This document shows positions 8,314 to 25,806 of a stretch of 64,000 bases of DNA, one piece after another (position 1 is the stretch's first letter; every line of letters begins with the position of its first letter). The DNA lies in assembly GCF_013141825.1 (NCBI RefSeq), contig NZ_RZNH01000002.1, forward strand, positions 186,001-250,000, written 5' to 3'. The notes under the pieces are model-generated. The model made no database searches. It was given only the letters and a program-made list of their open reading frames with translations, and had not been told where the DNA came from. The stretch is from Marinifilum caeruleilacunae. GTDB lineage: Bacteria > Bacteroidota > Bacteroidia > Bacteroidales > Marinifilaceae. A program made the translations under genes and the position numbers.

Positions 8314-10929
8314 CTAATCAACAAGTATCACTTTACGTTTCACTTGCTTATCGAGGTATTGAATGAGCAGGTAGTACACACCAGAGGAAAGTCCGTTCAT
8401 GTTTAAATCCAATCGGTTACCCGAATTTAAGTACTCCGTAACTTTTCTGCCGGCCGAATCGAAAGCACTTACCCGAAATTCGCTCACTTCCTCATGCTCT
8501 ACCAAAACGGTAAAAATGCCATTACTCGGATTAGGATAAACTTTCACTTCTCTTTCCGCTTCCTCATCCGGATCTGGGGTTGGATCAGGATCGGGATCTG
8601 TATCCGGATTTGGATCGCCTGCAATGGTATCACGAACCACAATTTTATGCATTCCCTCAGCCAAATCAACCGTAATTTCAAATATTCCATCCTCGTTGGA
8701 ATCGCCAGTTCGGGCCAATTCATCGTTTACAAAAACGCCAAAGGAAGTATTTGCCTGCATATCTACAGCAAAAATTTTAATGGTCCTGTTTCCATCAAGC
8801 GGATTTATGGTGTAAGATGTGTTAAGCGTATCACCATTGGCATGGAAGAGGTACAAATGATTTTCCCAATCTACCCCAATGCTTGATTCGTTTTGGTGTA
8901 GCTCTCCTCCTGCATTGGAAGAATTCTGATTATCGCCAATTTTAATGGTATGCAAAAATACAAGGTCTTCTTTTAGCTCGCTTGGTTCCACTTCGATACG
9001 CCAGGAACCAGGATGTTCTAAATCCAGGTTTGGACTGCCATTGGGCGGATAATTCGTTCCGTTTACCCAATACTCATAATTGTTTCCACCAATTAAAGTG
9101 GTGGTGCTGGCTTCTGGTAACAAAGTACGAATGGCTACATTTCCATTGCCATGCGAAGCCTTATAATCTTTCCCGTTATAAGTAAGAATTTTATCGGGAA
9201 CACTTGTATTTACAATTTGCCCATTGATATCGGGACGATTTGCAAAGTGATTAATGTACTTGGCTTTTCGTTCCCGAGAATTGGTGTTTAGCAGGTGAAT
9301 ATGATCCAAAATCAGGACACGATCAGGTTTGTGATAGAGCAATCGCCTCTCAAATCGATCCAGCTTGTTCGATGCATAAGAATCTGCTGCATCGCTGATA
9401 TAATAGGCATATTCATCGGCGGCAGCAAACTTTAACCACTCACCTCTCCTATGGTCACTATCTGTTACTTCTCCCACATTTTCCAATCGGTCAGTCCATA
9501 TTTGTCCGCCATCATTGGAAACCGATCGACCAAAAGCCCGATAAGATTCCGATGCATCGAAAACACAAACAGAGTTGTGCGCAATGGTTCGAGAATAGTA
9601 GTTGTTGTAATGATCGGTAGCATAAGAATCGTAATAACCTGCATCTAATATTTGTGGTTTATCCCGAATAATAACGAAATGGTTGTTGTCTCTGTGTTCG
9701 TGATCGGCCCTTTTGGCTGGTGCACAATAATACCAAAGCATAGTCGCATCCTCATCCCATGAAGTTCTGCTCACGGCCAAACCTGTTTTATCGGCCCACC
9801 AATCAAGAGGAGGTTCAGGGTGGGAAACTGTAGCTGCTTCAAAATCTTTAAACAATAGCTTCTGAAACACCAGGTTTGTATTGTTCAGGTATTCAGCACC
9901 TCCATATTTCTGCACCAAATATTGACTTCTTGCATCACCAAATTCCGCTGCATGACGATACATTACCCTGTTGGCCTGGTTTAATCCAATTACTGCATCG
10001 CCCAAATGAATGGTGTAATAATCAGGTCGATAAAAATACCAATACTGGTTGATCGATTCCCTGATCCAATCCTGATCCTGGTAATAATCCTTACCGGTGG
10101 CAATTTTCATGTCATCGAAAAACTGGTACTGTCGAGGCAAGCCAAACATGGAATAGGCAGCTCCCCAATTCCAGCCTCCATCATCATCACGAAAGTGAGC
10201 AAAGGCCGGAAGAATACCATTCTCCCACTTATCGACCAGAGTACGATACCAAGAATTTACATCAGACATTTGACCGGATGATAATCCGTCGGCGCCATGT
10301 AGGGCAAGTGCCGCATGCATGGTAATTCCACAGTTATAAATGTTATGGCTGGTAACATATGAATTGCCAGAAGGAGTTAAAACATAGTTATCCATGAAGT
10401 ATTCGAGCACCCGATACAAGGCCCGTGAAAGTTTCTGCCGTTTTGCTTGCGGAACTTCATTGTAGGTCCAATCCAGAAGTATGGCTCCGTAATTGCAATT
10501 GTTACGAAGAAGGTTTTCTTTTGTATCGCCGGAATAGTTATCGAAATTGAGGGAATTGAGGTATTCCACATACCTGGAAATGATAAATTCACAACGCTGA
10601 AGAGCCAAACCATCCGTTCCCATTTTTAGAAGGAAAGCTGTCATTCTGGACATTTGAAAAGCATGGCTCGATCCAAATTCGTAGTTCCACTGACTTGAAT
10701 CCGAACCCACCAGGTAAGTCTTGGAGTTGGTCACCCAATTTCTATCGTAACTGCTTTTAAAGCGTTGGTAGGTTTCCTGGCTTTCCCCCAAAGAGATATT
10801 TTCTTTCAACCAGTCAAATCGTTCCTGACTTAATTCCAATCTTGGATGCTGCTCATTCACAATGGGTACATCTTGCGAATAGCAACCAAACAATAAAAAG
10901 AAAAACAGAAAAACAAAAACACTCCTCAT
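8314..10929 (-). CDS. Heparinase II/III-family polysaccharide lyase with T9SS C-terminal domain
   Basis: A 871-residue secreted protein. Order of parts: a hydrophobic signal (RSVFVFLFFFLLFGC), an alpha/alpha-toroid domain (about 30-380), a heparinase II/III-like beta-sandwich domain (about 390-640) with HEHRDNNHFVII-type His/Asn residues (DHEHRDNNH) and DAGYYDSYATDHYNNYYSR, a variable region, an Asp/Pro linker encoded at about 8557-8625, and a type A T9SS sorting domain (VYPNPSNGIF start, VKRKVILVD end). The family cleaves uronic-acid polysaccharides by beta-elimination. The start was moved from a TTG at 10950 to the ATG at 10929, which begins the signal. The signal ends in LFGC, which looks like a lipobox, odd for a T9SS cargo. 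The substrate is not assigned. Confidence 0.85.
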   Translation of the reverse strand: MRSVFVFLFFFLLFGCYSQDVPIVNEQHPRLELSQERFDWLKENISLGESQETYQRFKSSYDRNWVTNSKTYLVGSDSSQWNYEFGSSHAFQMSRMTAFLLKMGTDGLALQRCEFIISRYVEYLNSLNFDNYSGDTKENLLRNNCNYGAILLDWTYNEVPQAKRQKLSRALYRVLEYFMDNYVLTPSGNSYVTSHNIYNCGITMHAALALHGADGLSSGQMSDVNSWYRTLVDKWENGILPAFAHFRDDDGGWNWGAAYSMFGLPRQYQFFDDMKIATGKDYYQDQDWIRESINQYWYFYRPDYYTIHLGDAVIGLNQANRVMYRHAAEFGDARSQYLVQKYGGAEYLNNTNLVFQKLLFKDFEAATVSHPEPPLDWWADKTGLAVSRTSWDEDATMLWYYCAPAKRADHEHRDNNHFVIIRDKPQILDAGYYDSYATDHYNNYYSRTIAHNSVCVFDASESYRAFGRSVSNDGGQIWTDRLENVGEVTDSDHRRGEWLKFAAADEYAYYISDAADSYASNKLDRFERRLLYHKPDRVLILDHIHLLNTNSRERKAKYINHFANRPDINGQIVNTSVPDKILTYNGKDYKASHGNGNVAIRTLLPEASTTTLIGGNNYEYWVNGTNYPPNGSPNLDLEHPGSWRIEVEPSELKEDLVFLHTIKIGDNQNSSNAGGELHQNESSIGVDWENHLYLFHANGDTLNTSYTINPLDGNRTIKIFAVDMQANTSFGVFVNDELARTGDSNEDGIFEITVDLAEGMHKIVVRDTIAGDPNPDTDPDPDPTPDPDEEAEREVKVYPNPSNGIFTVLVEHEEVSEFRVSAFDSAGRKVTEYLNSGNRLDLNMNGLSSGVYYLLIQYLDKQVKRKVILVD

Positions 10930-11048
10930 TACATCCCTATTTGTAATCAATTGATTTATTAAAATACAAAATATTAAGGGATTAACAGATTAATATTTCA
11001 TAACATGGCTAATTTAGAATCGAAAATTAAGCCTATTATGGCAGAAGT

Positions 11049-12407
11049 TTAGGTCAACTTCTTGTTTAGTTTTTTAAATTCCCAAATGATAAAGATTCCT
11101 GCAATAATGGCCGATCCAACATCTGAAATTGGACCTGCAAACCAAACGCCGTCTAAACCAAGGAATTTTGGAAGTATGAAAAGGATCGGAATGAGTAAAA
11201 TAACCTGTCTCATCAGGGTTAATAAGGTGGAAACACCAGCTCGCCCAATGGACTGAAAGTAATTTCCTACAATAATTTGAAAGCCTACAATTGGCAAGGC
11301 AATCAGGAAGGTTCGTAAACCTTTCGACCCCACTTCAAGCAATTCTTTATCGCTGCTGTTAAAGGCCAGTACCATAGTTTCAGGAAATAGCTGGACCAAA
11401 ATCCATCCAACCAGGGCAATTCCCGTTGCAGCAGTCATGCAGATTTTTAGAGTTTCCTTTACCCTTTCGTAATGTTTGGCACCATGACTAAATCCAAAAA
11501 TTGGCTGAGCTGCCATATTAATGGCAATAATGGTCATTACAATAAGCATGGCAACCGAATTGATTACACCCATTGCTGCTATGGCAATATCGTTGCTAAA
11601 TTTTATGAGCTGTACGTTGTATAAACCTTGTACAAAACTACCTGCAATCTGCATAGAGAATGGTGCAAATCCGATGGTAATGATGTACAAAATAATTTGA
11701 GGATTCAGTTTAAAATTGCTGGCTCGTAATCTGATTACCGATCTGTTGCTTCTAAAATGCTTGATTACCCATACACAAAGAATCATTTGCGAAATGATTG
11801 TGGCATAGGCTGCACCTGCAACACCCATATCCAAAACAAAAATAAAGATCGGGTCTAAAACAATATTTGTTCCGGCGCTTATTAGCATGGAGTACATGGC
11901 AATTTTTGCATTTCCCTCCGAACGAATCAGGTTATTCAGGGAAAAGCCAACCACATTAAAAATGGCTCCATATAGAATAATGTTGAGGTATTCGTTGGCA
12001 ATCGAAACGGTATCGCTTGATACACCAAAAAGTCTTAACAAAGGATCTTTAATGGTAAAGCCAAGAATGGTAATAAATGCCGAAACAATAATCATCAGGA
12101 TAAAAGAGTTCCCTAAAACCCACTCGGCCCTTTTAAAATCTTTTTTTCCCAAATTAATTGAAATTCGAACTCCCGCTCCCATTCCAATAAGCATTCCAAA
12201 TGCCATTAATATCAGCATAATAGGATAAACGGCACTAAGACCCGATAAGGCAACCGATCCAACGCCCTGACCAATAAAAATACGATCAACCACATTATAC
12301 AGCGAGTTAATTACAACTCCCGTAAATGCAGGCCAAAAATATTTCCACAGCAAACTGCTGATTTTGGCATTTTCTAATTCGTATACATTTTGGCTGTTCT
12401 TGTCCAT
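11049..12407 (-). CDS. MATE family efflux transporter
   Basis: A 452-residue inner-membrane protein with about 12 hydrophobic segments, matching the MATE (MatE) family of Na+- or H+-driven multidrug/metabolite exporters. The conserved early motif is WPAFTGVVINSLYNVVDRIFIG, read as key residues P, N, V-D-R-I-F-I-G around residue 20-40, with internal duplication in the second half. The start was set at the ATG at 12407. An upstream in-frame ATG at 12545 would add 46 residues that look like untranslated leader and would make the protein longer than the usual 440-460. It is 165 bp downstream of the cupin gene on the same strand. The substrate is unknown. Confidence 0.92.
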   Translation of the reverse strand: MDKNSQNVYELENAKISSLLWKYFWPAFTGVVINSLYNVVDRIFIGQGVGSVALSGLSAVYPIMLILMAFGMLIGMGAGVRISINLGKKDFKRAEWVLGNSFILMIIVSAFITILGFTIKDPLLRLFGVSSDTVSIANEYLNIILYGAIFNVVGFSLNNLIRSEGNAKIAMYSMLISAGTNIVLDPIFIFVLDMGVAGAAYATIISQMILCVWVIKHFRSNRSVIRLRASNFKLNPQIILYIITIGFAPFSMQIAGSFVQGLYNVQLIKFSNDIAIAAMGVINSVAMLIVMTIIAINMAAQPIFGFSHGAKHYERVKETLKICMTAATGIALVGWILVQLFPETMVLAFNSSDKELLEVGSKGLRTFLIALPIVGFQIIVGNYFQSIGRAGVSTLLTLMRQVILLIPILFILPKFLGLDGVWFAGPISDVGSAIIAGIFIIWEFKKLNKKLT

Positions 12408-12572
12408 AGAAGGTGCACAAATGTACCAAGAATGACTGGCAAGGCAGACGAATTCCAGATAAAAATTCCTAAAAGTCGGTAAGAGGCTATTGTAAGGGGG
12501 CAAAAAGCTCCTGTTAACCTGTAGATTCAGGAAAGACGAGAACAAATAAGCAGCTTGAAATTCTTTAAAGAA

Positions 12573-12905
12573 TTATTTCAGTTTATACCTGTCGCTTTCG
12601 GCAAAATAATCCATTACTATGGTTTTGCTGTTAAATTTGGCCGAGTGCAATACCCCTTCAGGAATGTAGTAATGATCCCCTTTCCTGTAATTTTTTGTTT
12701 TGCCATCAATGGTCAGGTCCATATCGCCATCAATCACCATTCCCCACTGTTCCCCGTGCGAATGTCTTGGTACTTCTCCAATGGGCTCAATCTCAAAAAA
12801 TACAATTTGTTGATTTTCTCCCTGGGCTACCCAACCTCGTACCCCATTAAATGGGATATCAGCCTCAGGCAAATTTTTAATCATTTGCGGATAAATGTCT
12901 TGCAT
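12573..12905 (-). CDS. Cupin domain protein
   Basis: A 110-residue single-domain cupin. Metal-binding signatures are visible: EVPRHSHGEQWG (two His and a Glu of motif 1) and IPEGVLHSAKF (His of motif 2). No signal peptide, so cytoplasmic. It lies 32 bp after the AlkD-like gene at 12938 and is the last gene of a same-strand run that begins at 23250. Small cupins bind metals, sugars or effectors and have varied roles; none can be assigned here. Confidence 0.88.
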   Translation of the reverse strand: MQDIYPQMIKNLPEADIPFNGVRGWVAQGENQQIVFFEIEPIGEVPRHSHGEQWGMVIDGDMDLTIDGKTKNYRKGDHYYIPEGVLHSAKFNSKTIVMDYFAESDRYKLK

Positions 12906-12937
12906 GCTTGTTTCATATTAATGAATTCGAACGAAAG

Positions 12938-13597
12938 TTATAAATATTTACTCCCTTCCCGAATACTCAGTGGAGATAAAGAGTGTTGAGAGATAAATGT
13001 TCTTACCCAGTCGGGATTAAACTTCGAATATTGTCGCAAGGCCCAACCAATTGCTTTATTCACAAAAAACTCATTACTCAGATGATTGGATCGAATTGCT
13101 TTTGAGAGGAATTCTGTATCCACATCATTTTTATATTTCAATTGAAAAATAATTGTGACTCGTTTTAGCCAGATATTGGAATCTATGATCCAATCGTACA
13201 TCACCTCTTGTTTTACTTCGGGATATCCTTTACAAATTACTCCAACCAGTGGTGCCAAGGCATCAACCGAATCCCACCAGGATTTAGATAGGATAAGCAT
13301 CTCTAATTTTGAAAGATCATCTTTTACCAGGTATTTCTGCAGTTTGGAGAGATATTCCAATGCCAGGTATTGATACTCACGTTCTGGCAAATCCCATAAG
13401 TACATAACCATGTTCCAATCGATGCTTTTTTCTTTTATTGCCTCTTTCAGGAACGCTTTGCTAAGCGCAGCTCTTTTGGGCTTTGGTATTCCCAAAAAAG
13501 AGAAATGATTCTTCATGTATGCTGACATGCGTTTGGCATATTCAGGATCGGTATTTTGCCTGAAAATTTCTACAATCTGTAAAGTTTGAGTTTGCAT
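12938..13597 (-). CDS. DNA alkylation repair protein, AlkD-like
   Basis: A 219-residue protein of the AlkD superfamily of HEAT-like-repeat DNA glycosylases. The helical repeats run throughout. The key SWWDSVDALAP motif, with the Trp-Trp-Asp arrangement of AlkD that contacts the lesion and the scissile sugar, lies around residue 105-115. Further family positions are NIWLKRVTIIFQ and the NKAIGWALRQYSK segment. Members excise 3- and 7-alkylpurines. It follows another AlkD-like gene by 26 bp. A full Ada protein is encoded about 25 kb away. Confidence 0.88.
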   Translation of the reverse strand: MQTQTLQIVEIFRQNTDPEYAKRMSAYMKNHFSFLGIPKPKRAALSKAFLKEAIKEKSIDWNMVMYLWDLPEREYQYLALEYLSKLQKYLVKDDLSKLEMLILSKSWWDSVDALAPLVGVICKGYPEVKQEVMYDWIIDSNIWLKRVTIIFQLKYKNDVDTEFLSKAIRSNHLSNEFFVNKAIGWALRQYSKFNPDWVRTFISQHSLSPLSIREGSKYL

Positions 13598-13623
13598 TGT
13601 ACTACATATTTATTGGCATGAAA

Positions 13624-14331
13624 TTAACAGCGAGCAGTTTTCTTCTTTTTACCAACTCTCCCCTTATCAATAATTTTTTGCAGATATTCAGGTGCAAAAG
13701 GCACTTTACAAGATGTTTTGCCCATATACACATCTACTTTCCCAATTTTTTCAGCCGTTTTCATCGATAAATCGGTTAGCTCTTCTACATAGGCTCCTAC
13801 CGAAATCACAAATCCATTCATGGTATACTTTACCCTGTTCAAAGATTGATGAATATCTTTCTCAACTCTCAACAGTAAGCTTTTAAGTTGTGTCACATCC
13901 AACTCTTCATCCTTTTTTAAGGCTACCAGACTCGATAGGGTTGACCAACCTGCAGCGGCGGTATTTTCTTCATCCGATTCAATCCATTCCAATGCCAACT
14001 CCAATCCAAAATCAGACTCTGCGGCTATCCAGGGAACGGTATATTCGCTAATCATCTGCCAGTATGCGCCTTTAACCCACTTCTGAAGATCTGCTTTTGT
14101 CATCTGTTTTTCATCTGCAATCAAACCAGCAAGGTACATGGCATCCGAATTACCAGACTCGTACAATTCCAACGACAATTGATAATCCTTTTTAATTTTC
14201 TTTACAATTTTCTTAAGATCCTGCACCTTTACGCCATAAAAAGGTTCACGAGCACCATGTTTGATCAGAACATTTTTCGTTCCTTCGTTTCCATATGATT
14301 CAAGCTCTTTAAATACTTCTTCTTTGGTCAT
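13624..14331 (-). CDS. DNA alkylation repair family protein, divergent AlkD-like paralogue
   Basis: A 235-residue all-helical protein of the broader AlkD/HEAT-repeat family. Recognisable segments are KVQDLKKIVKKIKKDYQLS, SDAMYLAGLIADE, YTVPWIAAESDFGLELA (key residues W, E, S) and a basic tail GRVGKKKKTARC. The WWDxVD signature of the neighbouring gene is replaced by a WQMISEYTVPW region, so its catalytic ability is uncertain. It lies 29 bp after the 1388-residue protein and 26 bp before the canonical AlkD gene. It could be an active glycosylase of a different subgroup or a DNA-binding HEAT protein. Confidence 0.8.
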   Translation of the reverse strand: MTKEEVFKELESYGNEGTKNVLIKHGAREPFYGVKVQDLKKIVKKIKKDYQLSLELYESGNSDAMYLAGLIADEKQMTKADLQKWVKGAYWQMISEYTVPWIAAESDFGLELALEWIESDEENTAAAGWSTLSSLVALKKDEELDVTQLKSLLLRVEKDIHQSLNRVKYTMNGFVISVGAYVEELTDLSMKTAEKIGKVDVYMGKTSCKVPFAPEYLQKIIDKGRVGKKKKTARC

Positions 14332-14360
14332 TATTTCCTTAATTATTATGATTATCTTTG

Positions 14361-17300
14361 CTAGTTCTTCACTTTATCCGCTGGTGCGTTAATTTTAAAA
14401 ACATCGGCATACACCAATTTAGGTTGATTTTCTTCCGATACTGCTGTGGCAAGACTCTTTATGTTGCCACTGCCCTTAGGACCTCTTTCGAATTCCTGCA
14501 CAATTACCTGAAGCGGTTGATCCTTATACTTTCTGCTCAATTTAAATTCGCGCACCACAGTAAAATAGTTATTTTTTACCACACTGCCAGAAATTGGAAT
14601 GCTAACTCCTTCCTCTTCCAGGCTGTCTTCATTTCTGCCATCGGATACACTTCCATAAACCGGTTGTACCAGTTCAGGGTCAAGGAAACTTATTTCCAAA
14701 TAGTTGCCTGTATTTCCATTTCGATCAAGAGGATTTGAAATTACGCCTTCCACCTGCAATGTAAAACGGGAATTCATATTATCCTTTTTAAAAGTAAGGG
14801 TGGCAATTCGTTCAGGCACCAACTGAATATAGTCTGCCATTACAACCGACGACAAGCATACATCTCGTCCGGCTTTTCGAACCGAATGTGGCTGATATCT
14901 GGCCAAAGCCAACTTTACAAATGGGAAATACATTTTTCCATGATTCAAGGCAAAATCGGCATACCATAGCTTTCGTTCTTTATCGAATTCAACTGGATAA
15001 GCCACAGCATTTACCTTGTGCTTTTCCTTACCGGGATAAACCAAAGCCTTATCGACAGTCGGATTGTGCCTAAAATCCTTAATGGAAGGGTAATTCATGC
15101 CAGCAGGCTTTGATGGACGGATTGGATCCTGTGCCCAATGAGTAAACATACTGTTGAATCCTGCACCTCCCAAAGCAGCAATGGTTTGGGATATTTTCGA
15201 TGGATCAGATCCCGGTAACAAGACTGCAAGCATCTCATCTTCTCCTGTTGAGAACCATGGCCTCTTCAAATATACACGTAAACCGCCACCAAGACGATGC
15301 TGTCGCATTACGCTCGCACTTTTTGTTTTTCTCCACTCGAATGTAGGGATTACATATTCCACGAATGGGATTTTTGGCCGGTCCGAACTTAATATATTCA
15401 CTCGTTCCATCCATTCTCCATCTCTTGTCATTTCCAAACCTTCCGATTGTATCAGCTTGTCGAAATGCTCGGCATAACGAGTGGTTGCTTCGGGGTAATA
15501 ATCTACATAACGATGCTTCGTATCGCCAAACTTGTGCTTTAGTGCACCACTAAACTCACTTGCCAAACTTACCTGCAATTGAGCTTTGGCCTGATTGTTT
15601 TGCCCTTGTATGGCTATTTGTTTCGAAGGATCCTTCTTTTTAGGAAGATTTCCCTTATCCACACTTTTATCGTGGTATGAAATGTCAATTTCTTCTACAT
15701 TGTCTGAATGATCTACCCAATCGGGTTCAACTGTTCTTGGGTCATCTCTTCGATCTTTCCAGCGTGCTTTGTATTCTACTTTATGACTCGAAAATCCATG
15801 AACTGAAAATCTTGTATGCAGCCAGGCATGTGTATCATCGTAATTCTTATCAGGATTAATAATTTCTATTTGAGGCGCTTCAACGGGTTGCAGAACGGCA
15901 TGAGTGAGTTCAATTTCCCTGGCAGGGCTAATCATCCAATGTCTTCCGCTTCGGGCAAGTTCTTTAATTGTATCTATGTTTGCAGGGTTTTCTTCCTGCA
16001 GCAGCTGCCACATGCCCGATAGTTCATTCATATCTTCCTCTCTCCAGAAGGTAGAAAACCTCAGCTTTATTCTTTCTCCCTTTGGCAGGGATACCAATAA
16101 CAGTCGCTCCGAGGCCTTCCAATCAAATGAAGTACTTCCCTCGACCAATTGAATTCGTAGAGATTTTGCTTTGTACCAGTTATCTTCGGAAACCGAAATG
16201 TTTGTATCGTTCGAACTCAATTCAGCATTACCAAAAAAGCTGAACAATCTTGGCTCAAATGCCTGAGAATGTGTTTTATCATATCCATCTGCTAAAAATA
16301 AGGCAACTCCGGCTGCAGCCGGATCTGGCAAATAAATCAAATCAACTTCATCTCCCTTATAGACTTTTTCCTTACCATTCTCCCCTTTTTCCAATTGTAC
16401 TTCTTTCGAACTAATCAGTTCATAAAGTGCCTTGGCTACCTCAGGATTGTTCCCAAATGCCTTATCAAATTTTGAATGTTGTTCTGCAATTAATTGTGAG
16501 TTTCTTGGTGGCAAAAAATGCCTGGTAGCATTTCTGTTCTCGCTAGCATCCAAACTGCCATATCGTTCCTGAAACTCGTCGGTTGTCATATTATAATTGC
16601 TTCGAACTACCAATTCCTCCAATGCTTCACCATCTTTCAATTCCGATCCTAACAATAGAACCGGGTTCATCAAAGCATCGTAACGATAGTAGCGGAAACC
16701 CCTGATCACAGCTTCCGATACTTTCTCGGGCTGCGACTCAAGTGGAACACTATTACCAGCCAAATCTACGGTTCTTACCCGTAGCATGTAATCACGTCCG
16801 AATCGCAGTCTTGGCAAACTGCCTTTTACAGTTTCGGTTTTGGTGTGTAATCGAAATTCGCGGGTAGAATCGAATTGGTATTTTTTTACTTCCACATTCT
16901 TCGAGGTATTCACATAGTCAACTCGTTTCGAAGGATCAACATTTTCATCTTCGGCCTCATTTATGGCAAATCCAGGTTTGGGAACCGATAAACTCCATCC
17001 TTCCCAGCGAATCATATTTTCACCTACAAATAACTCATTGGCATTCTCAGTATCTTCTGCAGCGGCGGTTTGTATAAAACCTTCATCCACCTGAATATCA
17101 TCAATAAACTCCTCTACATTACTGGAATCAAAATAGGAATACGACTCCTTTCTCATGTGTAAAGAGTGCCATTTTTCAGGATCACTAGCGTAAGCAACAT
17201 CCATTCGGTACCCTTGTACAAGGTCTTCGGCGTATAATCTTTCATCAGACAATATCAGCTTTAAGCTGTTATCCATTTTCGATGGATCGATAATTTTGGC

Positions 17301-18527
17301 CTGCAATTGCTTGGCCTGCAAGAACCTGGCATTCAAGCGCTCACCCATTCCGTTTCTGGCAATTCCAATACCCGCCGACCTTAGCGATGGCAAACCTTCC
17401 TTTTCCGGTTCGTCGGCGGGGATTGCTGCATTTTTAAATCGCTTGCTTTTGCCCAGATCGAGCTCTACTATTTTCAGCTTCACCTCTTCCTGTATCTTAT
17501 TGTCTACCATATGGTTCACTTTCATGGCAACACCATCGGTATCAATTTGAAAAGCGGTAAAAGTGTCGGTATTGATTTTTACAAAGCCCAGGTTGATATC
17601 AGAATCCTCTTTTGACTGAGCGTAAAATCCTTTTTCGGTATAACGATATGCTGTTAAAGGAACCGATACTTCTGTATTGGTAATAAAATCGATATTCTCA
17701 ATAATTAACCTCATGGCCTGACTTGCCGGAAAACCCGATGGAATATCAAGACTAAAATCGAGAACCACTCCCAATTTTCTTTGGATTTGCGGATAAGTGC
17801 TAACAACAGCCAAAATATCATGAAACTCGAATTCGGGCTTTTTTATTTTTGCCAATGGCGCATATCTTGTAGGCCGATCGGTTTTATGAAAATCTCTAAA
17901 CTGTGCAAAATCCATTTTGGGGTTGGCCTGTTTTTGGAAAGGGACAAATCCATTCTTTTTTCTCAGTTCTTCCAATCTTTGGCTTGTACTTTCATCCACA
18001 TCCAGGAAATCGGACTCCTTAAATACCCTTCTGCTTGAGCTTGTAGCGTTGCTTTCGGGTGGCTTTGGTGTATCCCTTTTTTTAAATTTGGATATCTGTC
18101 CAAGGCTTTTCGGATCGCTCAGGTCCTTGGGATCAATTAATCGATCAGGATTTTTGGTTCCAAGCCTTTTATAAGTCTCTAAAACAAAACTTTGCACATG
18201 CTTAATTGGATAGGAATGAATACGAGTTTGGCTCAAATCTTCTTGCTGAAATCCATCCACGCGAATGTCTTTGTGCATAAGTTTCATCCACAAGTCATTA
18301 TCCAACAGGTCTGAATTCAAATTAATATCATATTCTGTCCCATTCTTTAATCTTAATTTAAAAGAAGCATTCTTCAGTTTCCCTGGCCAGTTTTCCATAT
18401 CAGGAAAGGAAGATAGTGTTGTAGAAACCGCATTTTCGAGACGTAAACTAACCTGCACCGAGAATCTAAGCTTGTTTTGAGCATCAATTCGGTGTGGCAA
18501 ACATGTGAATATGATCTTTTGTTTCAT
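14361..18527 (-). CDS. Giant uncharacterised protein A (1388 aa)
   Basis: A 1388-residue protein with no signal peptide or membrane segment, so it is probably cytoplasmic or exported by an unseen route. It begins TCLPHRID-NKLRFSVQVSLRLE, then LSSFPDMENWPGKL. Other striking blocks are an LRFGRDYMLRVRTVDLAGNS stretch near residue 580 (fibronectin-III-like strand pattern), GGLRVYLKRPWFSTGEDE near 1080, FTHWAQDPIRPS near 1120, and YFPFVKLALARYQPHSV then SSVVMADYIQLVPER near 1210-1250. The composition is strongly beta with charged loops. From memory, similar blocks occur in large unannotated proteins of actinobacteria and myxobacteria; this is recall, not a search. It follows giant protein B by 61 bp and is probably co-transcribed. 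Function unknown. Confidence 0.9.
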   Translation of the reverse strand: MKQKIIFTCLPHRIDAQNKLRFSVQVSLRLENAVSTTLSSFPDMENWPGKLKNASFKLRLKNGTEYDINLNSDLLDNDLWMKLMHKDIRVDGFQQEDLSQTRIHSYPIKHVQSFVLETYKRLGTKNPDRLIDPKDLSDPKSLGQISKFKKRDTPKPPESNATSSSRRVFKESDFLDVDESTSQRLEELRKKNGFVPFQKQANPKMDFAQFRDFHKTDRPTRYAPLAKIKKPEFEFHDILAVVSTYPQIQRKLGVVLDFSLDIPSGFPASQAMRLIIENIDFITNTEVSVPLTAYRYTEKGFYAQSKEDSDINLGFVKINTDTFTAFQIDTDGVAMKVNHMVDNKIQEEVKLKIVELDLGKSKRFKNAAIPADEPEKEGLPSLRSAGIGIARNGMGERLNARFLQAKQLQAKIIDPSKMDNSLKLILSDERLYAEDLVQGYRMDVAYASDPEKWHSLHMRKESYSYFDSSNVEEFIDDIQVDEGFIQTAAAEDTENANELFVGENMIRWEGWSLSVPKPGFAINEAEDENVDPSKRVDYVNTSKNVEVKKYQFDSTREFRLHTKTETVKGSLPRLRFGRDYMLRVRTVDLAGNSVPLESQPEKVSEAVIRGFRYYRYDALMNPVLLLGSELKDGEALEELVVRSNYNMTTDEFQERYGSLDASENRNATRHFLPPRNSQLIAEQHSKFDKAFGNNPEVAKALYELISSKEVQLEKGENGKEKVYKGDEVDLIYLPDPAAAGVALFLADGYDKTHSQAFEPRLFSFFGNAELSSNDTNISVSEDNWYKAKSLRIQLVEGSTSFDWKASERLLLVSLPKGERIKLRFSTFWREEDMNELSGMWQLLQEENPANIDTIKELARSGRHWMISPAREIELTHAVLQPVEAPQIEIINPDKNYDDTHAWLHTRFSVHGFSSHKVEYKARWKDRRDDPRTVEPDWVDHSDNVEEIDISYHDKSVDKGNLPKKKDPSKQIAIQGQNNQAKAQLQVSLASEFSGALKHKFGDTKHRYVDYYPEATTRYAEHFDKLIQSEGLEMTRDGEWMERVNILSSDRPKIPFVEYVIPTFEWRKTKSASVMRQHRLGGGLRVYLKRPWFSTGEDEMLAVLLPGSDPSKISQTIAALGGAGFNSMFTHWAQDPIRPSKPAGMNYPSIKDFRHNPTVDKALVYPGKEKHKVNAVAYPVEFDKERKLWYADFALNHGKMYFPFVKLALARYQPHSVRKAGRDVCLSSVVMADYIQLVPERIATLTFKKDNMNSRFTLQVEGVISNPLDRNGNTGNYLEISFLDPELVQPVYGSVSDGRNEDSLEEEGVSIPISGSVVKNNYFTVVREFKLSRKYKDQPLQVIVQEFERGPKGSGNIKSLATAVSEENQPKLVYADVFKINAPADKVKN

Positions 18528-18588
18528 TGCTTCAATAGTTAGTTCCTATTTTATCTTTTCCCAATCATGATAGATTGCTTGTTTTTTA

Positions 18589-21500
18589 TTATGCATAAGC
18601 CTGGCAATATTCCAGCCAATCGTTTTCTTCCATAATCATTTGGAAAGTAGGATCGGCATCGGCACCTTTCAATTCTCGACGAGCAGTAAGCGTTACCGTT
18701 TTGCTGAAGAACAGAACTTCTACCTTCACTTTTACGATGGCCTCGCCATACAGCTTTTCAACCTTACCATTCTGGAACATGGCAACAAAAGCCAGGTAAA
18801 TTTCAATTGAGAGGCTTATAATTCCAAGAATTGAGAGGTAACCGTTAAAACGGATATAACCTGTTAAAATGGTTTCGGTATGATCATCAACAATCTCCAT
18901 ACTAAAATAGAAACCACCCATAACCGATACTCCTCCACTTGCCACTCCAAAATTCATCGATAAAGCTGCTCCAAACTCAAAGGCAGCTTCCATTCCCACA
19001 AAGCCTTTCACACTTGTTTTCATGAGGAAATATCCTCCGCCTCCAAATGCCGATACCGTTAATAAAAACGGAGCTTCTCGCTTACAGAAGTTGAATTTAA
19101 GCGTTAAAGGTGCGCCTGTAAATGGTAAATTAACACCTGCACCCAGGGTCATATTTGCAATGGTACAAACCCCAACCTCAACACTTGGAATGGCCAAATC
19201 GAAACCTGCGCTTACTCCTGTCGGAGAAAGTTTCATGTATGGTCCATCAGCAAATCCATTGGAAGGGATTAGATTTTGCAACTGATTTACAAAGCTCAAT
19301 GGTCCCAAAAACAGAATTGAATCTTCCTCGGCCATCTCCACTTTTACATCGGCCTTTTTACCCGAGCCTCCACCAAACTTCAGTGATTTAAAGCTTACGC
19401 GGATCAATTCCTTAATTTCAACATCGAAATCGGTGAAAGAGGCATCTACTCCAAACTGTGTTTTTTGTGATGTATCGAATGGGCGACTTAATTTGCTTAA
19501 AATCTGTAAGGCTTCTTTAGGTTTCTGAACATTTACGGTAAGGAAACCACCAAATAATGATTTACTGGCTTCCATTTCAGGAATCCAGCGATATTCCACA
19601 ACAAATGCTTTATCGGTTTTGTAGGCATTAAAGTTTGGGATTCGTGGCACCTGGCTGGTTAATTGTTGTTCCAGTTCATTCACCTTACTTTCAAGTTGAC
19701 TTCTTAGATTTTGAATTTCCTGTTGTATGGTCGCCTTGGCATCTTCGGCCGCGGATTCCAGCATGGCTTGTTGTTCAAGAATATCCTCTTTTAATGTTTC
19801 CATTTGGTTGCTTAAGCCACTTAAAGCCTCGGATTGTTGATTTCCTTCAGCACCAAAATTCAGATTGCCCAGCAAGAGATCGAATATGGAAACAACACCA
19901 AATAATTTGGCGACAGGCATATCACCTGCCGATGCGAAAAATTCTGCAGGATCAAACTCCAGGTTCTGCAATTTGTCAACCGCTCCACCCATTGGACCTT
20001 TCAATTTAGAAAGAGAAGTGAGCTGCGTATTCGGACTCATAAATCCACCAGACTTGTCTGAACCTCCAGAAAAATCCGCCTTTAAATTATCCAGAACTTT
20101 CGCAAAAACTTTCGCTGCATTGTCATCATCCTGTAATTCAATGCTAACCGGATCTGGATTTCCTGTTAATTCTTCAACAGCTTTTACCTTTACGGATGCT
20201 GTTTTTATGCTAGGATGAAACTTTAAAATGCCAGCAGGTTTGCCCTGGAGAGTAATCGCTCCAAAATCAACAAATTTGGTTTCGAAAGTAGTGTCACCCT
20301 CAATCAATGATTTTGAAAAGGCAATTTTCTGCAGGTTAAAATCCGCTTTAAAGCGATTCATTTCGGCATTGTAAACTGCAACCAACTGTGTCGATTTTGA
20401 TTCATTATATGCTGCAGATTTCCCAATAAATATCAAAGGAAGTTTGATTTTTTGTTCCTCTCCTTCCTGATCCACCAAAAGCAGATCAAAAATTAAGTCT
20501 GTACCTCCGCTTCGAATCAGAAAATTGTAATCTCCGCCCATATTCACAAGGTTTTGCGGAGCATCTAAATCGGGTGTTCTTGTAGCTGGAAGTTCAACAG
20601 TTTGAAATGGAAATGGGATAAATCCATTTTGCGAATCTCTCATTTCATAATAGACTATCGGCTCCAGGATTACAATATACATTCTTTGTCGGTTCACCGC
20701 TGCCCGGGTAGCCTTATCCGGTTTACGCTCGGTTATTTTCACCAGGGCTGCCGTATGTCCAAACGGAAACAGAAAACCTGCTTCAACCACCTTCACATAA
20801 TGGTCTCTTCCCAAAGTAGACAGGTGTTCCCATTCCAGCAATTCCAAATCGGGCTGTGCATGAAAATCGGGATAATCGAAATTTACATTGAAATCGATCC
20901 AGGCACCCAAAGAAGACATCATGAATTTTTTAGCTTGTACTGCTCTTGGCGTATACGATTTAATGGTAAAATTAGAAGTCTGATGTACAATATTGTGCCT
21001 GTCCCGACCATCTAATGCTGTTCTGAACGGTTTATTTCTTGGCGGTTTTGGCATCAATTTTTTAAAGGCATCACGAGCCCAAAGTGCACGGATACTTCTA
21101 AAACCTTCCATACCATATTCGTCAATTTCTCCATTCTTTAGTCTTACCCCCATACGTGAATGCCACAGTTCAGATAGTTTTCCTTTGTTGGTAATTAAAG
21201 GATTATTGAACTGTAGATTTTGAATATTTCCTGTTGCAGTTTCCTGATGATCTTTTATTTTTAATTTTTGTATATGAGAAAATCCCGCCAGCTGATTTGG
21301 TGAAATAAACAATCGGCTTGGTGCTTCGATAGATGTTTCCAGAATGTTAGGCTTTCGCATCTCTAATAGGTTTGCCTTAAGTGATGCATAATTGATTTTG
21401 GCATAGATTTGTCCGCTGACTTCCCCTGGTAAATTTTTCACCAATTGATCTTTATTGTACAAATACCTACTACTTAACCTGTTTTTAGAGTACCTGGCAA

Positions 21501-23250
21501 TGTTTAAGCTTTGTTTGCTGAGAGTTTTTGGTGTGGAAACACTCTTCTTGCCCAGAAAATTACCCAGTTTCTGAAATTTATTAATTACTAGTTTAACAGG
21601 TTCCAGAACTCTTGCCCTGTAATTCACTTTTAATCGAAAACGCGACCAGTTTAAAAGTTCATCCATAATAATTGGCATGCCTTTAAAATTGGCCGGCACA
21701 GAATAAACCAATCGACTTTTGCCACTTCTTATATATTTTGCTGGCAATATCACATTCTCATTGCCTTCTCCACCCGGCAATGAATTGTTTTCCCAAAAGG
21801 CTTGTTCAAGCGTATGCTGAGGAGGAAACACAACTACCATAGTGGCTGGCTTTTTTGGATTATTGATTTCCAAATAGCTTTGTTGATCCTTTTTGATGTA
21901 TCGGAAATTATAAAACTCGAATTGGAGAAATAACATATCCTCTGGGCGAAGTACACTTAGTCTTATAATTTCTTTCTCTTTAATTTTAATTTTCCCCAGC
22001 CTGGAATCAATCACCACTTTCTTTTTCGATTGTAGTTTCCGATCCTGATAATCAATTTCTGCGACTGGTTTTTCCGGATATTCAACCGCCAAACTAATTG
22101 CATCCTGCAGTAAGTATTTGGTTGCACTAACCAGAGCAAGCCCTTTAACAGAATGAATCGTACCATTGCTTCCATTCAATTCGAAAGCCACATGCTCATT
22201 CGGATTTCGCATTTGATATGAAGCATTTGCAGAATTCATCCACACACCAGAATCAGCCAGGCTGGCATAAAAAACCAACTTTTCCTCATTGGCATGTAGT
22301 TCCATTGCCATTTGCGATTGGTAGAGTTTTATGATATCATCCTGTTCCTTATTCACTTTTTTATGAAAGAGAAATCCAGGCTTATTATTTAATTGGCTTT
22401 CATCCAAAAACACGATACTTGAATGACCTGCAAATTGAGAGCTTGATTTTAAGATTTTAATTTCATGAAGAAGATCACCAGATGACTTTAAGTCTGAATT
22501 ATCATTAAATTTCCAGGCATTTAACAAGTGATTAATAGATGTACTGAAAATTGTACATTGCAATACAGGTTTAAAAGTTGATTTGTAAATGGCCAGGTCT
22601 TCTTTCGTTGGAAGACTCATAGAAATTCGATCTGCAAAACATTCTTGTCCATTCCAGCGATAGCTTGCCAGCTGTTTCCCTTTTAAAGTAATTTTCCAGT
22701 ACTTATCAATTATAATATGATAATGATCTTCTATATCCAGGCTATACTTCTGGTTTAAGTTCAAACATTGATTCAAATATGTTAGTCCACTTAATTTACT
22801 TTTCTCATTGATCCAATCTGAAAAATTCAAATCATCCGATACATCGAGTTTGGTAAAATCAATTCTGATTCTCCAGGCAAAATCATAGTAAATAATGGCT
22901 CTAAAATCGATAGGAATTTTAGTTTCCGGAAAAAATGCATTTCTCAATACCAGGTGGTAAGAGTCATTTCTCTTCCTGAAAATTAATTTACTTCTTCCAT
23001 CGAATCGATCAGAATCAATCGTCCATGAATTTCCATCGTTGGAATAAAAAGTAATTTGTTTTGCCTTCTTTTTGTAATGAATATCATTAGATAAAGCATT
23101 GCCTAATGCTTTTAGTGAAGGTTGAAAAGCCAGGAAACCCAAGCCCAAACCTTTTAAGAAATTTCTACGACTTGAAGATTTTGGACCAGAAAAATTACGC
23201 TCATTTCTTGTCCTTTTCAGCTTGACTATATCAATATTCCTTAATCGCAT
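18589..23250 (-). CDS. Giant uncharacterised protein B with Tat signal (1553 aa)
   Basis: A 1553-residue protein. Residues 27-33 read SRRNFLK, a textbook twin-arginine motif, followed by the hydrophobic GLGLGFLAFQ and ending near ALG-N, so it is probably exported folded by Tat. Residues about 50-1130 are beta-rich without a known domain. A coiled coil (about 1140-1200, from QMETLKEDILEQQ to LEQQLTSQ) follows. The C-terminal about 240 residues are Gly/Phe/Ala-rich alternating strands: GVSAGFDLAIPSVEVG, LGAGVNLPFTGAPL, VSAFGGGGYF, FGVASGGVSVMGG, and a final WLEYCQAYA. This end resembles, from memory, the C-termini of large hypothetical proteins in other phyla. First gene of the run ending at the cupin. 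Function unknown. Confidence 0.9.
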   Translation of the reverse strand: MRLRNIDIVKLKRTRNERNFSGPKSSSRRNFLKGLGLGFLAFQPSLKALGNALSNDIHYKKKAKQITFYSNDGNSWTIDSDRFDGRSKLIFRKRNDSYHLVLRNAFFPETKIPIDFRAIIYYDFAWRIRIDFTKLDVSDDLNFSDWINEKSKLSGLTYLNQCLNLNQKYSLDIEDHYHIIIDKYWKITLKGKQLASYRWNGQECFADRISMSLPTKEDLAIYKSTFKPVLQCTIFSTSINHLLNAWKFNDNSDLKSSGDLLHEIKILKSSSQFAGHSSIVFLDESQLNNKPGFLFHKKVNKEQDDIIKLYQSQMAMELHANEEKLVFYASLADSGVWMNSANASYQMRNPNEHVAFELNGSNGTIHSVKGLALVSATKYLLQDAISLAVEYPEKPVAEIDYQDRKLQSKKKVVIDSRLGKIKIKEKEIIRLSVLRPEDMLFLQFEFYNFRYIKKDQQSYLEINNPKKPATMVVVFPPQHTLEQAFWENNSLPGGEGNENVILPAKYIRSGKSRLVYSVPANFKGMPIIMDELLNWSRFRLKVNYRARVLEPVKLVINKFQKLGNFLGKKSVSTPKTLSKQSLNIARYSKNRLSSRYLYNKDQLVKNLPGEVSGQIYAKINYASLKANLLEMRKPNILETSIEAPSRLFISPNQLAGFSHIQKLKIKDHQETATGNIQNLQFNNPLITNKGKLSELWHSRMGVRLKNGEIDEYGMEGFRSIRALWARDAFKKLMPKPPRNKPFRTALDGRDRHNIVHQTSNFTIKSYTPRAVQAKKFMMSSLGAWIDFNVNFDYPDFHAQPDLELLEWEHLSTLGRDHYVKVVEAGFLFPFGHTAALVKITERKPDKATRAAVNRQRMYIVILEPIVYYEMRDSQNGFIPFPFQTVELPATRTPDLDAPQNLVNMGGDYNFLIRSGGTDLIFDLLLVDQEGEEQKIKLPLIFIGKSAAYNESKSTQLVAVYNAEMNRFKADFNLQKIAFSKSLIEGDTTFETKFVDFGAITLQGKPAGILKFHPSIKTASVKVKAVEELTGNPDPVSIELQDDDNAAKVFAKVLDNLKADFSGGSDKSGGFMSPNTQLTSLSKLKGPMGGAVDKLQNLEFDPAEFFASAGDMPVAKLFGVVSIFDLLLGNLNFGAEGNQQSEALSGLSNQMETLKEDILEQQAMLESAAEDAKATIQQEIQNLRSQLESKVNELEQQLTSQVPRIPNFNAYKTDKAFVVEYRWIPEMEASKSLFGGFLTVNVQKPKEALQILSKLSRPFDTSQKTQFGVDASFTDFDVEIKELIRVSFKSLKFGGGSGKKADVKVEMAEEDSILFLGPLSFVNQLQNLIPSNGFADGPYMKLSPTGVSAGFDLAIPSVEVGVCTIANMTLGAGVNLPFTGAPLTLKFNFCKREAPFLLTVSAFGGGGYFLMKTSVKGFVGMEAAFEFGAALSMNFGVASGGVSVMGGFYFSMEIVDDHTETILTGYIRFNGYLSILGIISLSIEIYLAFVAMFQNGKVEKLYGEAIVKVKVEVLFFSKTVTLTARRELKGADADPTFQMIMEENDWLEYCQAYA

Positions 23251-23406: not shown

Positions 23407-25806
23407 TTAAATATCGTTTTCGTAATGACGCATGCCCGATTTTTTAGGCTTGGCTCTCATAATGCCATATCTCTTTCCTAAATAGTATCGGAAACTTAAT
23501 TTGGCTACCTGGGTTTCTCTATACTGAATTACCTTATTGTAGAAGGTAGGGTCTGCAGTATGAATCTTAAACCTGAAAGTATTAAAGATGTCATTTGCAG
23601 TAAATGAAATACTTCCCTTGCCTTTTAACACTCTTCTGCTCATGCCCAAATCTACATAGTACAGGTTCTGATATTTACCCTGCGGCACCAATATTTCGGA
23701 TTGATAACGGAAACTTGCCTGAAATTTAAACCACTTTTTGAAGTTCATAATGGAAGTAATTTTTCCTTCAACTTCCCACATATCTCGAGAGTCAAAATTA
23801 AACTCACTACTTGGTTTAAACTCTTCATAAATTCCGGCAACATATCCACTCAAACTCCACCATTTATTCAATTTGGTCGATGCTTCAAATTCTAATGATG
23901 AAAAGAACTTAGAATCGTAATTTCCATATTTTACAATGGATCTATTAGTTCCCTCTTCAATAAATCGGTATTGGTTGATTAGATCCTTAAAGTAGTTCAC
24001 ATACAGAGTAGTCTTGTAGCTGGCCTTTTTGCGATCGAAAGACATCGACATCTCCACATTGTGGTTGTAGTATGCACTAATATCCTGCGTTCCACGCTTC
24101 TGATTTTCCGGATCACGAAGGTTTTGAAATGGGTTTAACATTTTTGAATTCGGACGATAGATCATTCTACTGTATGCCAACTGAAACTGTTTTTTATCAG
24201 AAATCTGATAAGATAAATGTACACTTGGGAAAAGGTCAAAATAATCGTCTTCGTAATTTAAATTGGTTTTGATATCGGAATATTCTGCACGAAGTCCCAA
24301 TTCATAACCAAATTTACCGGCACCACCAGAATACATCGCATATAAACCATGAATGTTTTCTTCATAATTAAATGCAGTCGATAAATCGAATTGATCCTCG
24401 TAATCAATTTCATTGTTACGATACATGTATCCCGTTTCGAATTTCCCTTTCTTACCAACTGGTAGCACATAATCAACTTGTGCTACAGATTCCTTTCGGT
24501 CGAGCTTATAAAAATCTCCATATGCATCTGTCAGATTATTCCAGTTGTCCTGATATTCAAAATATTTTCCTTCATTATCTGATGCATTATCGGTATAAGC
24601 AAAATCTACCGAAAGAGTTTCTCCCTTCTTCGCAAATTTATGAATGTAAGAAGCTTTGTAAATCCACGATTCCAAAGCCATATCAACGGCACTGGTTCTA
24701 AAATCCATTGTAGGCATTGCACTGCTCAATAAATTCCTGCGCGTGTAGTCGTATGTTCCATTCCAATTCTGAAGAATATCTCTGTAAGATGCCGAAACGG
24801 TAAATGTATTGTTTTGATCGATCAGAAAATCCATTCCTAATTTGCCAATGTGATACCTGTTTCCAAAATCGACATCTGCATTTTCCAATAGGTGAGAATT
24901 GTTGGTATAAATCGTTCTATCGACATTGTAATCTCTACCAGCCCAATCATCCTTATAGTTATAAGAACCAAAAAAGTTTACACTTCCTGTTCTTAGGTTT
25001 GCTGATAAATTACCCGATTTTTTATCATTGGTTCCTACCGATGCACCCACATTACCACTAAAGCCTTTGGCTCTGTTCTTTTTCATGATAATGTTAATGA
25101 TTCCACCTGCTCCAGTTGCGTCATACCTGGCCGAAGTGGTGCTAATCACCTCTACACGATCAACATCGCTTGCCGGCATACTATTTAAAACTTCAGAAGG
25201 ATCTACACCCAGCAATCCTGTCATTTTACCATCAATCAGGATCTTCACGTTCGAACTTCTTCTAAACTGAATTTCACCATCAGCATTTACACTCACTTTT
25301 GGAATTGTGTTCAACACTTCGTTAATGGTTCCACCATCGGCAACCGGCGATTTGGATACATTGTATACGGTTTTACCAAGTTCAACACGCGAAAATTCAC
25401 GATTGGCTTCTACGGTAACTTCCGATATAGATTTGGTATCAAGCTTTAGGTTGATAGAAGTGGGAAGGACTTTTTTTTCACTATCGCTAAGTGTAAATTC
25501 TTTGCTATAATATGACAGAAATCCCAAATGCTCCACTTTTAAAAAGTAATCATTCGGATTAAGTCTTTTTATTGAAAACTCCCCCTTTTTATTAGTTATT
25601 GTTCCTTTAACAAGAACAGAATCTTTTAATGAATAAATAGAAACAGTTGCAAATTCAAGTGGTTTATTGAATTTACCTTCAAAAACTTTTCCCTTTATCT
25701 CAGAACTCTCGCTTTTTAATTGTTGGTTATTCGCGATGGCGAGAGAAGAAGTAAAAAAACAAATCAAAAGAAATGTAATTTTACCATAAGTAAATTTTAG
25801 GCTCAT
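23407..25806 (-). CDS. TonB-dependent receptor, outer-membrane beta-barrel family
   Basis: A 799-residue outer-membrane receptor. An N-terminal signal peptide (ends SLAIA-N) is followed by a CarboxypepD-regulatory-like domain (about 37-125: GKVFEGKFNKPLEFATVSIY), a plug domain (about 130-225, with EVTVEANREFSRVELGKTVYNV and an ILIDGKMTGLLGVDPSEVL core), and a 22-strand-type barrel ending in FRYYLGKRYGI. It is the OMP_b-brl_3 type of receptor, smaller than SusC. It lies downstream of the LytS/LytR pair with a terminator between, and has its own likely promoter. The ligand is unknown; no lipoprotein partner is adjacent. Confidence 0.9.
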   Translation of the reverse strand: MSLKFTYGKITFLLICFFTSSLAIANNQQLKSESSEIKGKVFEGKFNKPLEFATVSIYSLKDSVLVKGTITNKKGEFSIKRLNPNDYFLKVEHLGFLSYYSKEFTLSDSEKKVLPTSINLKLDTKSISEVTVEANREFSRVELGKTVYNVSKSPVADGGTINEVLNTIPKVSVNADGEIQFRRSSNVKILIDGKMTGLLGVDPSEVLNSMPASDVDRVEVISTTSARYDATGAGGIINIIMKKNRAKGFSGNVGASVGTNDKKSGNLSANLRTGSVNFFGSYNYKDDWAGRDYNVDRTIYTNNSHLLENADVDFGNRYHIGKLGMDFLIDQNNTFTVSASYRDILQNWNGTYDYTRRNLLSSAMPTMDFRTSAVDMALESWIYKASYIHKFAKKGETLSVDFAYTDNASDNEGKYFEYQDNWNNLTDAYGDFYKLDRKESVAQVDYVLPVGKKGKFETGYMYRNNEIDYEDQFDLSTAFNYEENIHGLYAMYSGGAGKFGYELGLRAEYSDIKTNLNYEDDYFDLFPSVHLSYQISDKKQFQLAYSRMIYRPNSKMLNPFQNLRDPENQKRGTQDISAYYNHNVEMSMSFDRKKASYKTTLYVNYFKDLINQYRFIEEGTNRSIVKYGNYDSKFFSSLEFEASTKLNKWWSLSGYVAGIYEEFKPSSEFNFDSRDMWEVEGKITSIMNFKKWFKFQASFRYQSEILVPQGKYQNLYYVDLGMSRRVLKGKGSISFTANDIFNTFRFKIHTADPTFYNKVIQYRETQVAKLSFRYYLGKRYGIMRAKPKKSGMRHYENDI

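Follow-up and report, generated by a model that had tools for sequence, protein, structure and literature searches.

A widespread but patchy pair of giant bacterial proteins with a Tat signal on one member and a candidate exported complex

Untagged proteins that leave the cytoplasm on a tagged subunit are established for the twin-arginine translocation (Tat) pathway: in such hitchhiker heteromers, the HybO-HybC hydrogenase and PaoABC among them, the signal is on one subunit only, according to PMC10924467 and PMC4273604, the second of which gives a Tat substrate range of 20-70 angstrom. Here we analyze a pair of adjacent genes with a similar layout, which we call B and A, in a stretch of 64,000 nucleotides of Marinifilum caeruleilacunae (Bacteroidota; contig NZ_RZNH01000002.1, positions 186,001 to 250,000), hereafter the window. 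B starts with a Tat signal, and no signal was detected on A, encoded alongside; a Tat-type element was found in 0/29 rows of the A family, signal elements being judged throughout by pattern and hydropathy rather than by a dedicated signal-peptide program. The pair differs from the described hitchhikers in that neither protein has a recognized cofactor-binding domain, neither protein could be placed in a known family, and some lineages carry no signal at all. It is also much larger than known Tat hitchhiker heteromers.

Four other kinds of system invite comparison. Bacterial alpha-2-macroglobulins, which are long strings of beta-sandwiches, are among the best fold targets of A, but the template modeling score (TM-score) is only about 0.1 and no Pfam MG/A2M match was found in the window protein or in 32 rows. 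The only cysteines of A are at residues 9 and 1224, neither of them in a CxEQ motif, the thioester site found in most alpha-2-macroglobulin members. The P47/OrfX (TULIP) proteins and large lipid transfer proteins weakly resemble the strands of B in fold, whereas B has no sequence match to P47/OrfX and we know of no A-like partner in P47/OrfX systems. Two-partner secretion (TpsA/TpsB) also combines two adjacent genes with a giant beta-rich protein, but by Pfam and NCBIfam neither A nor B contains a domain of the filamentous haemagglutinin, POTRA or FhaC-type barrel kind. Finally, the Tc/Rhs toxin complexes are giant, beta-rich, multi-gene units, and hydrolase-like genes lie near some A/B loci. 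By Pfam, however, A and B have no Rhs/YD, TcA or TcB domain, and B has a Tat signal; the fold matches of B to TcdB2-TccC3 (E 4e-3) and YenB/RHS2 (E 1.5e-2) are weak, with a probability of 0.09. Because no defining feature of a compared family was found in the pair except a Tat signal with an adjacent signal-less partner, we rate A/B as new as a system, while later work may place its job within a known kind. An earlier note on this DNA, written from the sequence alone, had supposed the system to be undescribed, and the literature that we searched, as open-access text, indeed holds no earlier description of the pair.

Gene content, conservation and searches against known families

The same note had pointed to two adjacent giant genes 61 bp apart, and both open reading frames (ORFs) are intact on the minus strand at the coordinates given here. 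The features of the pair are as follows; the denominators of the motif counts (36 A rows and 37 B rows) take in truncated and giant rows.

18589..23250, minus strand: gene B, 1553 aa, transcribed first (ORF and translation)
14361..18527, minus strand: gene A, 1388 aa, second, no signal element detected (ORF and translation)
18528..18588, minus strand: gap between B and A, 61 bp (from the ORF coordinates)
23101..23172, minus strand: Tat signal of B, residues 27-50 (translation)
19660..19833, minus strand: long helix or coiled coil of B, residues 1140-1197, a helix in the AlphaFold model (model numbering 711-768) with coiled-coil-type Pfam noise at the same place
18673..19005, minus strand: run of six strands in B with the FGVASGGVSVMGG block, residues 1416-1526, from a low-confidence AlphaFold model and face hydropathy
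18592..18618, minus strand: C-terminal tail of B, WLEYCQAYA, at the extreme end, family form WxxYCxAFA, in 23/37 B rows by strict pattern
16749..16808, minus strand: A block LRFGRDYMLRVRTVDLAGNS, residues 574-593, conserved columns, in 28/36 A rows by strict pattern
15234..15287, minus strand: A block GGLRVYLKRPWFSTGEDE, residues 1081-1098, conserved columns, in 27/36 A rows by strict pattern
14883..14930, minus strand: A block YFPFVKLALARYQPHS, residues 1200-1215, conserved columns, in 30/36 A rows by strict pattern

The blocks that had been read as a sign of selection prove to be conserved across the family. Besides the three A blocks and the B tail listed above, the GVASGGV block of B is present in 17/37 B rows by strict pattern, and a (W/F/L)TxLP family motif stands at the start of A in 30/36 rows, the window included. 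The region of LRFGRDYMLRVRTVDLAGNS, a block that we take to resemble the Y-x-R-x-R-A-x-D-x-A-G-N strand of FN3-type (fibronectin type III) domains, aligned also in the distant A of locus L058 (L, G and C numbers are our handles for loci, genomes and contigs). The ratio of nonsynonymous to synonymous substitution rates (dN/dS) against Marinifilum L008 is low, at 0.039 for A and 0.042 for B. The comparison with L013 gives 0.105 for B but no computable value for A, and dS is saturated throughout. Both proteins are, by these comparisons, under purifying selection.

Neither protein has a recognized domain, as the earlier note had stated, and profile searches of the kind it had proposed matched neither A nor B to a characterized family. 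Pfam gives no match to A and only sub-cut-off coiled-coil-type matches to B (residues 1110-1203), NCBIfam gives coiled-coil-type noise only, and PHROGs has no match to either protein; the noise from all libraries together lies within residues 1110-1204 of B. Sequence and profile searches against the sequences of the PDB returned no real match. The single PADLOC match, a weak one to ZorA (14.5 bits), falls in the coiled-coil stretch of B, and PADLOC recognizes no known anti-phage defense system in the pair. A PG_binding_1 match in the A of S. nigrescens scored 22.1 bits, below the 23-bit cut-off, and is not used as evidence. We also rejected a viral origin: none of 52 pattern stretches in viral contigs was confirmed as A, neither A nor B was found in 50,697 phage records, and a viral fold search with B gave no usable match.

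Distribution and co-inheritance of A and B

A/B is a real, widespread but patchy two-protein system. Among 296 Bacteroidota-phylum genomes, the A profile matches 14 and the B profile matches 14, and 13 genomes are common to the two sets, an outcome that supports the pairing under the co-occurrence test set in the earlier note. The hypergeometric chance of such an overlap is 1e-20 by genome and 2e-12 by genus (9/10 common), figures that ignore the relatedness of the genomes. In the A-only exception (G133) the match is to a very remote A (E 1.8e-6), next to which a similarly remote B lies upstream, while in the B-only exception (G288) the B gene sits at a contig end. The distribution of A is patchy even among close relatives: 6/58 of these have it, the window's own genome included. 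Four of the positives are among the six genomes of genus g1, and two other genera of the family contribute a single genome apiece. In one Bacteroidota class it is present in 12/149 genomes.

The pair extends well outside this phylum. Of 72,556 plasmid records, 10 contain A (Streptomyces 3, Rhizobium 3, Cupriavidus 2, Diaphorobacter 1, Ensifer 1) and 14 contain B, while 15 match when a giant A is the query. Pairs were located on plasmids of Streptomyces, Rhizobium, Cupriavidus, Diaphorobacter, Agrobacterium, Ruegeria and Sinorhizobium. A wide spread, as the earlier note had supposed, is thereby borne out for Bacteroidota, Streptomyces and the plasmids of alpha- and betaproteobacteria, so that the note was right about actinobacteria; yet with 14/296 phylum genomes the spread is patchy.

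Gene order is the same at every pair locus fetched. In the window, B is the immediate upstream neighbor of A and shares its strand, and this arrangement recurs in 12/12 fetched strong phylum loci (L046-L057), in 5/5 genomes added from the class sample (L072-L076), in L017-L024, L025, L026 and L029, which make up 11 plasmid loci, and in L081, the fourth of the giant pairs. These giant pairs form a plasmid subfamily in which B reaches 3,043-3,311 aa and the usual order is kept. In L046 the B gene is cut by the contig end with the pair order otherwise kept, in L052 the end of B is in a second frame, and in L025 A is split over two ORFs. Separately, we observed B in two overlapping frames in L018 (9652-13975) and L052 (8847-13250), possibly a broken gene or a sequencing error. 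Of 29 relatives, 13 have the two genes 2-30 bp apart and four have them 99-336 bp apart; in the other 12 the ORFs overlap, but there the earliest possible start of A was taken and may be too early.

Two more distant kinds of pair were found. One is a second and divergent pair, in the usual order, that the genome of the window encodes on a different contig (C191, ~128724-137995; locus L070, B 8725-13692, A 13680-17996) and that the family profiles match at E 1e-13 for A and 2e-68 for B; its B is without a Tat signal and its A has no relative among the plasmids. The other, in L058, is more distant still: a profile comparison relates its A to the family with a probability of 96% (E 9e-9), the aligned part taking in LRFG...AGNS, while its B gives a weak C-terminal match only (E 4e-4, probability 34%). 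The same pair type, with the same gene order, recurs in L089, and it is present in 2/345 class genomes.

The distances in the A and B trees are strongly correlated (r = 0.906, 27 loci), against 0.277 for the highest value among 10,000 permutations of the labels; the permutation ignores the common ancestry of the hosts, and the trees were read without branch supports. In both trees, the proteobacterial loci L019, L020 and L022 stand beside the Bacteroidota loci L072-L075, which fits interphylum transfer of A and B as a unit. Decayed copies were also found. Ensifer L028 has an A-like fragment without B, next to an ORF that looks transposase-like by eye; Rhizobium Pop5 L082 and Bradyrhizobium L083 have A fragments with annotated transposases nearby; Paraburkholderia L027 has a B fragment, and in G269 a piece of A lies at a contig end (L080). 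The decayed fragments on rhizobial and Paraburkholderia plasmids suggest that the pair may be gained and lost often. Gene order and trees show A and B to be a co-inherited pair with B first, and they are almost certainly a functional pair.

Export signal, predicted folds and a candidate exported complex

The B of the window has its twin arginine at R28-R29 (S-R-R-N-F-L-K) with a hydrophobic stretch behind it, and so carries the (S/T)RRxFLK-type motif of Tat substrates, the best clue to the pair and one that the earlier note had missed. We found this signal in 24/34 B homologues (the window, 22/32 rows and L081). The pattern in L022 was discounted because an over-long start had produced it, and the rows are not independent, since four of the 24 positives are Marinifilaceae. 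With five further Marinifilaceae proteins that also have it (L009, L011, L012, L014, L015) and three distant or cut ones that do not (L058, L071, L089), the total comes to 29/42. All four giant plasmid B proteins carry the signal, and on Sinorhizobium meliloti plasmid pC a tatA gene (L029, 22856-23023) directly follows the giant A. TatC is present in 20/20 genomes tested; it is so common that its presence merely permits Tat export of B, and we dropped it as a discriminator. Where the signal is present, B is in all likelihood exported, as predicted from its N-terminus.

We modeled residues 189-1388 of A (24 rows) and 430-1553 of B (21 rows) with AlphaFold, leaving out rows from plasmid records. 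The mean predicted local distance difference test score (pLDDT) and the predicted TM-score (pTM) are 68 and 0.49 for the A model and 57 and 0.38 for the B model. At this moderate to low confidence, the secondary structure of both models agrees with the earlier description of the proteins as beta-rich. Fold searches with A rank alpha-2-macroglobulins, mastigoneme proteins and FN3-type receptor ectodomains first (E ~1e-5, TM ~0.1-0.2); on the model, A appears to be a string of immunoglobulin (Ig)/FN3-like beta-sandwiches that matches no single known protein, and Pfam finds no FN3 profile match in it. In B, residues 1416-1526 are modeled as six strands of 12-18 residues, most of which have one hydrophobic and one polar face. 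The fold matches of B are weak; they include outer-membrane barrels, LptD, P47 (E 2.4e-3, probability 0.28), microsomal triglyceride transfer protein and lipid-binding proteins of the LBP type. We read them solely as an indication of long amphipathic strands in the model. B does not show the features of an outer-membrane beta-barrel: the tail WxxYCxAFA of 23/37 rows ends in a non-aromatic residue, and homologues occur in Streptomyces.

The explanation that we favor, which falls a little short of an even call, is that A and B are the two subunits of a single giant exported complex, in which B carries A and which does its work outside the cytoplasmic membrane. According to this proposal, B and A would fold and assemble with each other while still in the cytoplasm, and their complex would then leave via the Tat system on the signal of B, with A as a signal-less hitchhiker. 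Outside, the Ig/FN3-like beta-sandwich string of A would serve as a binding or scaffold arm, and the C-terminal sheet of long amphipathic strands in B would be the part that faces a membrane or lipid. In one Bacteroidota branch, the complex would work with two further proteins, C and D, and would end at or beyond the outer membrane. Taken by themselves, the co-export of A with B is a tentative proposal of about the same standing as the whole, and contact of B with lipid or membrane is doubtful.

Several points weigh against this explanation or limit it. Binding between A and B is a proposal from sequence, by way of the tree correlation. The fold statements are soft given the weak models and low TM-scores, no listed fold match of either protein being above a TM-score of ~0.3. 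Together, A and B amount to 2,941 residues in the window and 4,800 to 5,200 in the giants, which is far larger than the usual Tat cargo. The signal is absent from 10/34 B homologues (L018-L023, L049, L052, L057, L070) and from the B proteins of L058, L071 and L089, which are distant or cut, so Tat export is not universal in the family. The pairing itself has exceptions: L077 (4854-9104) and L078 (10055-14293) are extra full-length A genes without adjoining traces of B, in related genomes each of which also holds a complete pair, and L017, L047, L056 and the f42 loci are placed differently in the A and B trees. Finally, the search for D came up empty both in the genome of the window and in its relatives.

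The signal-less homologues bear also on an alternative that we consider unlikely, namely that A and B act together in the cytoplasm, with the Tat signal of B secondary in some lineages and A never exported. The lack of a Tat-type element in the A rows, in the B proteins just named and in the three distant or cut loci would suit this alternative, as would the DNA repair genes that follow the pair in Marinifilaceae. Tat signals are present, however, in Bacteroidota, Streptomyces, Rhizobium and the four giant pairs, a pattern more easily explained by an ancestral signal with losses, and by eye the f42 loci seem to retain the segment that precedes the Tat signal elsewhere.

Neighboring genes and competing explanations

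The neighbors of the pair in the window, and examples of neighbors in other loci, are:

13624-14331 and 12938-13597, minus strand: two AlkD-type DNA alkylation repair genes (Pfam PF08713), downstream of A
12573-12905, minus strand: cupin (Pfam PF07883), downstream of the AlkD-type genes
23407..25806, minus strand: outer-membrane beta-barrel with plug and CarboxypepD_reg (PF14905, PF07715, PF13715), upstream of B
L048 15012-19801 and L051 186-4921: C/D examples
L021 8871-9851 (Streptomyces plasmid) and L081 3218-4138 (Rhizobium plasmid): gene 'E', 306-326 aa

The AlkD-type genes and the cupin follow A at spacings of ~30 bp, and their order is kept in the Marinifilaceae loci L013 and L015; the genes at 12573..14331 are possibly on the A/B transcript. 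A gene of 799-801 aa that looks similar to the upstream outer-membrane barrel gene, its start compared by eye, occupies the same place in L013 and L015.

The C and D families flank the pair in eight Bacteroidota loci of our first set, and C is present in a ninth also. The start of C is signal-like, and the protein carries a PPPNQL..DLWxVxLxN domain, with RCC1 repeats in L048; to judge by its start, C is probably Sec-secreted. D is a probable outer-membrane barrel by its sub-threshold porin-type Pfam matches and by the Trp at the end of 8/9 full-length copies. NCBIfam has no match to the C and D rows tried or to giant B. D-like genes are present in 111/149 class genomes, and C-like genes in 71/149 at E 1e-20. 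C-like open frames elsewhere reach ~4,000 codons. The 12 genomes with the best D matches among the 149 are exactly the 12 A-positive ones, 7/12 of which had seeded the profile; in three of the five non-seed genomes (G269, G358, G369) D is on a different contig from A. We rejected C and D as universal partners: D is present in 2/14 genomes checked, and it was not found in the Marinifilaceae, the f42 family or G133. As D was not found in the other 12/14, C and D are optional.

These families enter into a second alternative, in which the pair builds a surface adhesin or structural layer, a passive fiber or coat that, in one branch, C and D would hold at the outer membrane. The Ig/FN3-like string of A, with mastigoneme and receptor ectodomains among its fold matches, is consistent with such a structure, and so are the signal-like start and L048 repeats of C, the barrel-like character of D, whose orthologue tracks A/B, and the wide occurrence of C-like and D-like genes, some with very long C-like frames. 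We nevertheless place this alternative on the improbable side, because export would be by Tat and not by Sec, because the pair is present in Streptomyces, which has no outer membrane, and because many adhesins are repetitive but the A and B genes of the window show a single minor 34-bp match as their only tandem repeat.

A third alternative, also rather unlikely in our estimate, is that A and B carry a secreted or lysis-released killing system, with variable adjoining hydrolases as cargo, as in other large toxin complexes. Hydrolase genes are indeed close to the pair in unrelated loci: in L089 a Tle1-type phospholipase lies upstream of the distant B, on the same strand and at a distance of 581 bp, a zinc phospholipase C lies 1.4 kb upstream in Ruegeria L026, and a patatin 0.8 kb downstream in L018; an astacin-type protease overlaps the A stop by 4 bp in L024, and an M23 peptidase follows the A fragment of Bradyrhizobium L083 after 49 bp. 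Among the neighbors in L071 there is an M15 match below cut-off. Gene 'E' is full-length in 2/72,556 plasmid records, the Rhizobium record of the query and one Streptomyces record, and in each it is within ~2.1 kb of B, although the two hosts belong to different phyla. A third plasmid record, from Vibrio, has the C-terminal part only. That half of 'E' occurs also in a phage protein encoded just after a holin, with one small gene between them, and from this location 'E' may be a cell-wall hydrolase. The missing signals in 10/34 B homologues would suit release by lysis. On the other side, hydrolases are common genes, and the neighbors were scanned with Pfam in part of the loci and without a background rate, so that hydrolase and 'E' neighbors are a lead only. 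A phmmer search over the ORFs of 41 fetched loci matches 'E' in those two alone, none of 21 Bacteroidota-phylum genomes has it (0/21, a search without a positive control), it is on the opposite strand in L021, and Pfam finds no toxin-family domain in A or B.

Least likely of the alternatives, and very improbable, is a lipid shuttle in which B is a large lipid-binding protein and A a scaffold and lipids are moved across the envelope: the weak fold matches to P47/OrfX, LBP-type proteins, microsomal triglyceride transfer protein and LptD and the hydrophobic faces of the C-terminal strands of B fit it, but the E-values run from 1e-3 to 1e-1, the mean pLDDT of the model is 57, and porins score equally against that model, which suggests just long beta strands. 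The exported complex that we favor is partly compatible with the antagonism, surface-structure and lipid readings, and the likelihoods given for them are not exclusive of one another.

The role of A/B may be that of an envelope machine, a surface structure or an antagonism particle. In its most far-reaching form, which we think quite unlikely, the pair would represent a new class of exported machine, a folded Tat-exported heteromer of 3,000 to 5,200 residues, with A hitchhiking, that serves to carry interchangeable lytic enzymes (phospholipases, peptidases, 'E') against other cells and has spread between phyla, partly on plasmids. If the hydrolase neighbors are cargo, this would be a new delivery system. 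If A leaves on the Tat signal of B, the pair offers a direct test of the size limit of the pathway, and to our knowledge the complex would be among the largest folded cargoes proposed for Tat. Genes of more than 4 kb that are kept paired across at least three phyla, under purifying selection, must perform a task that is both costly and useful.

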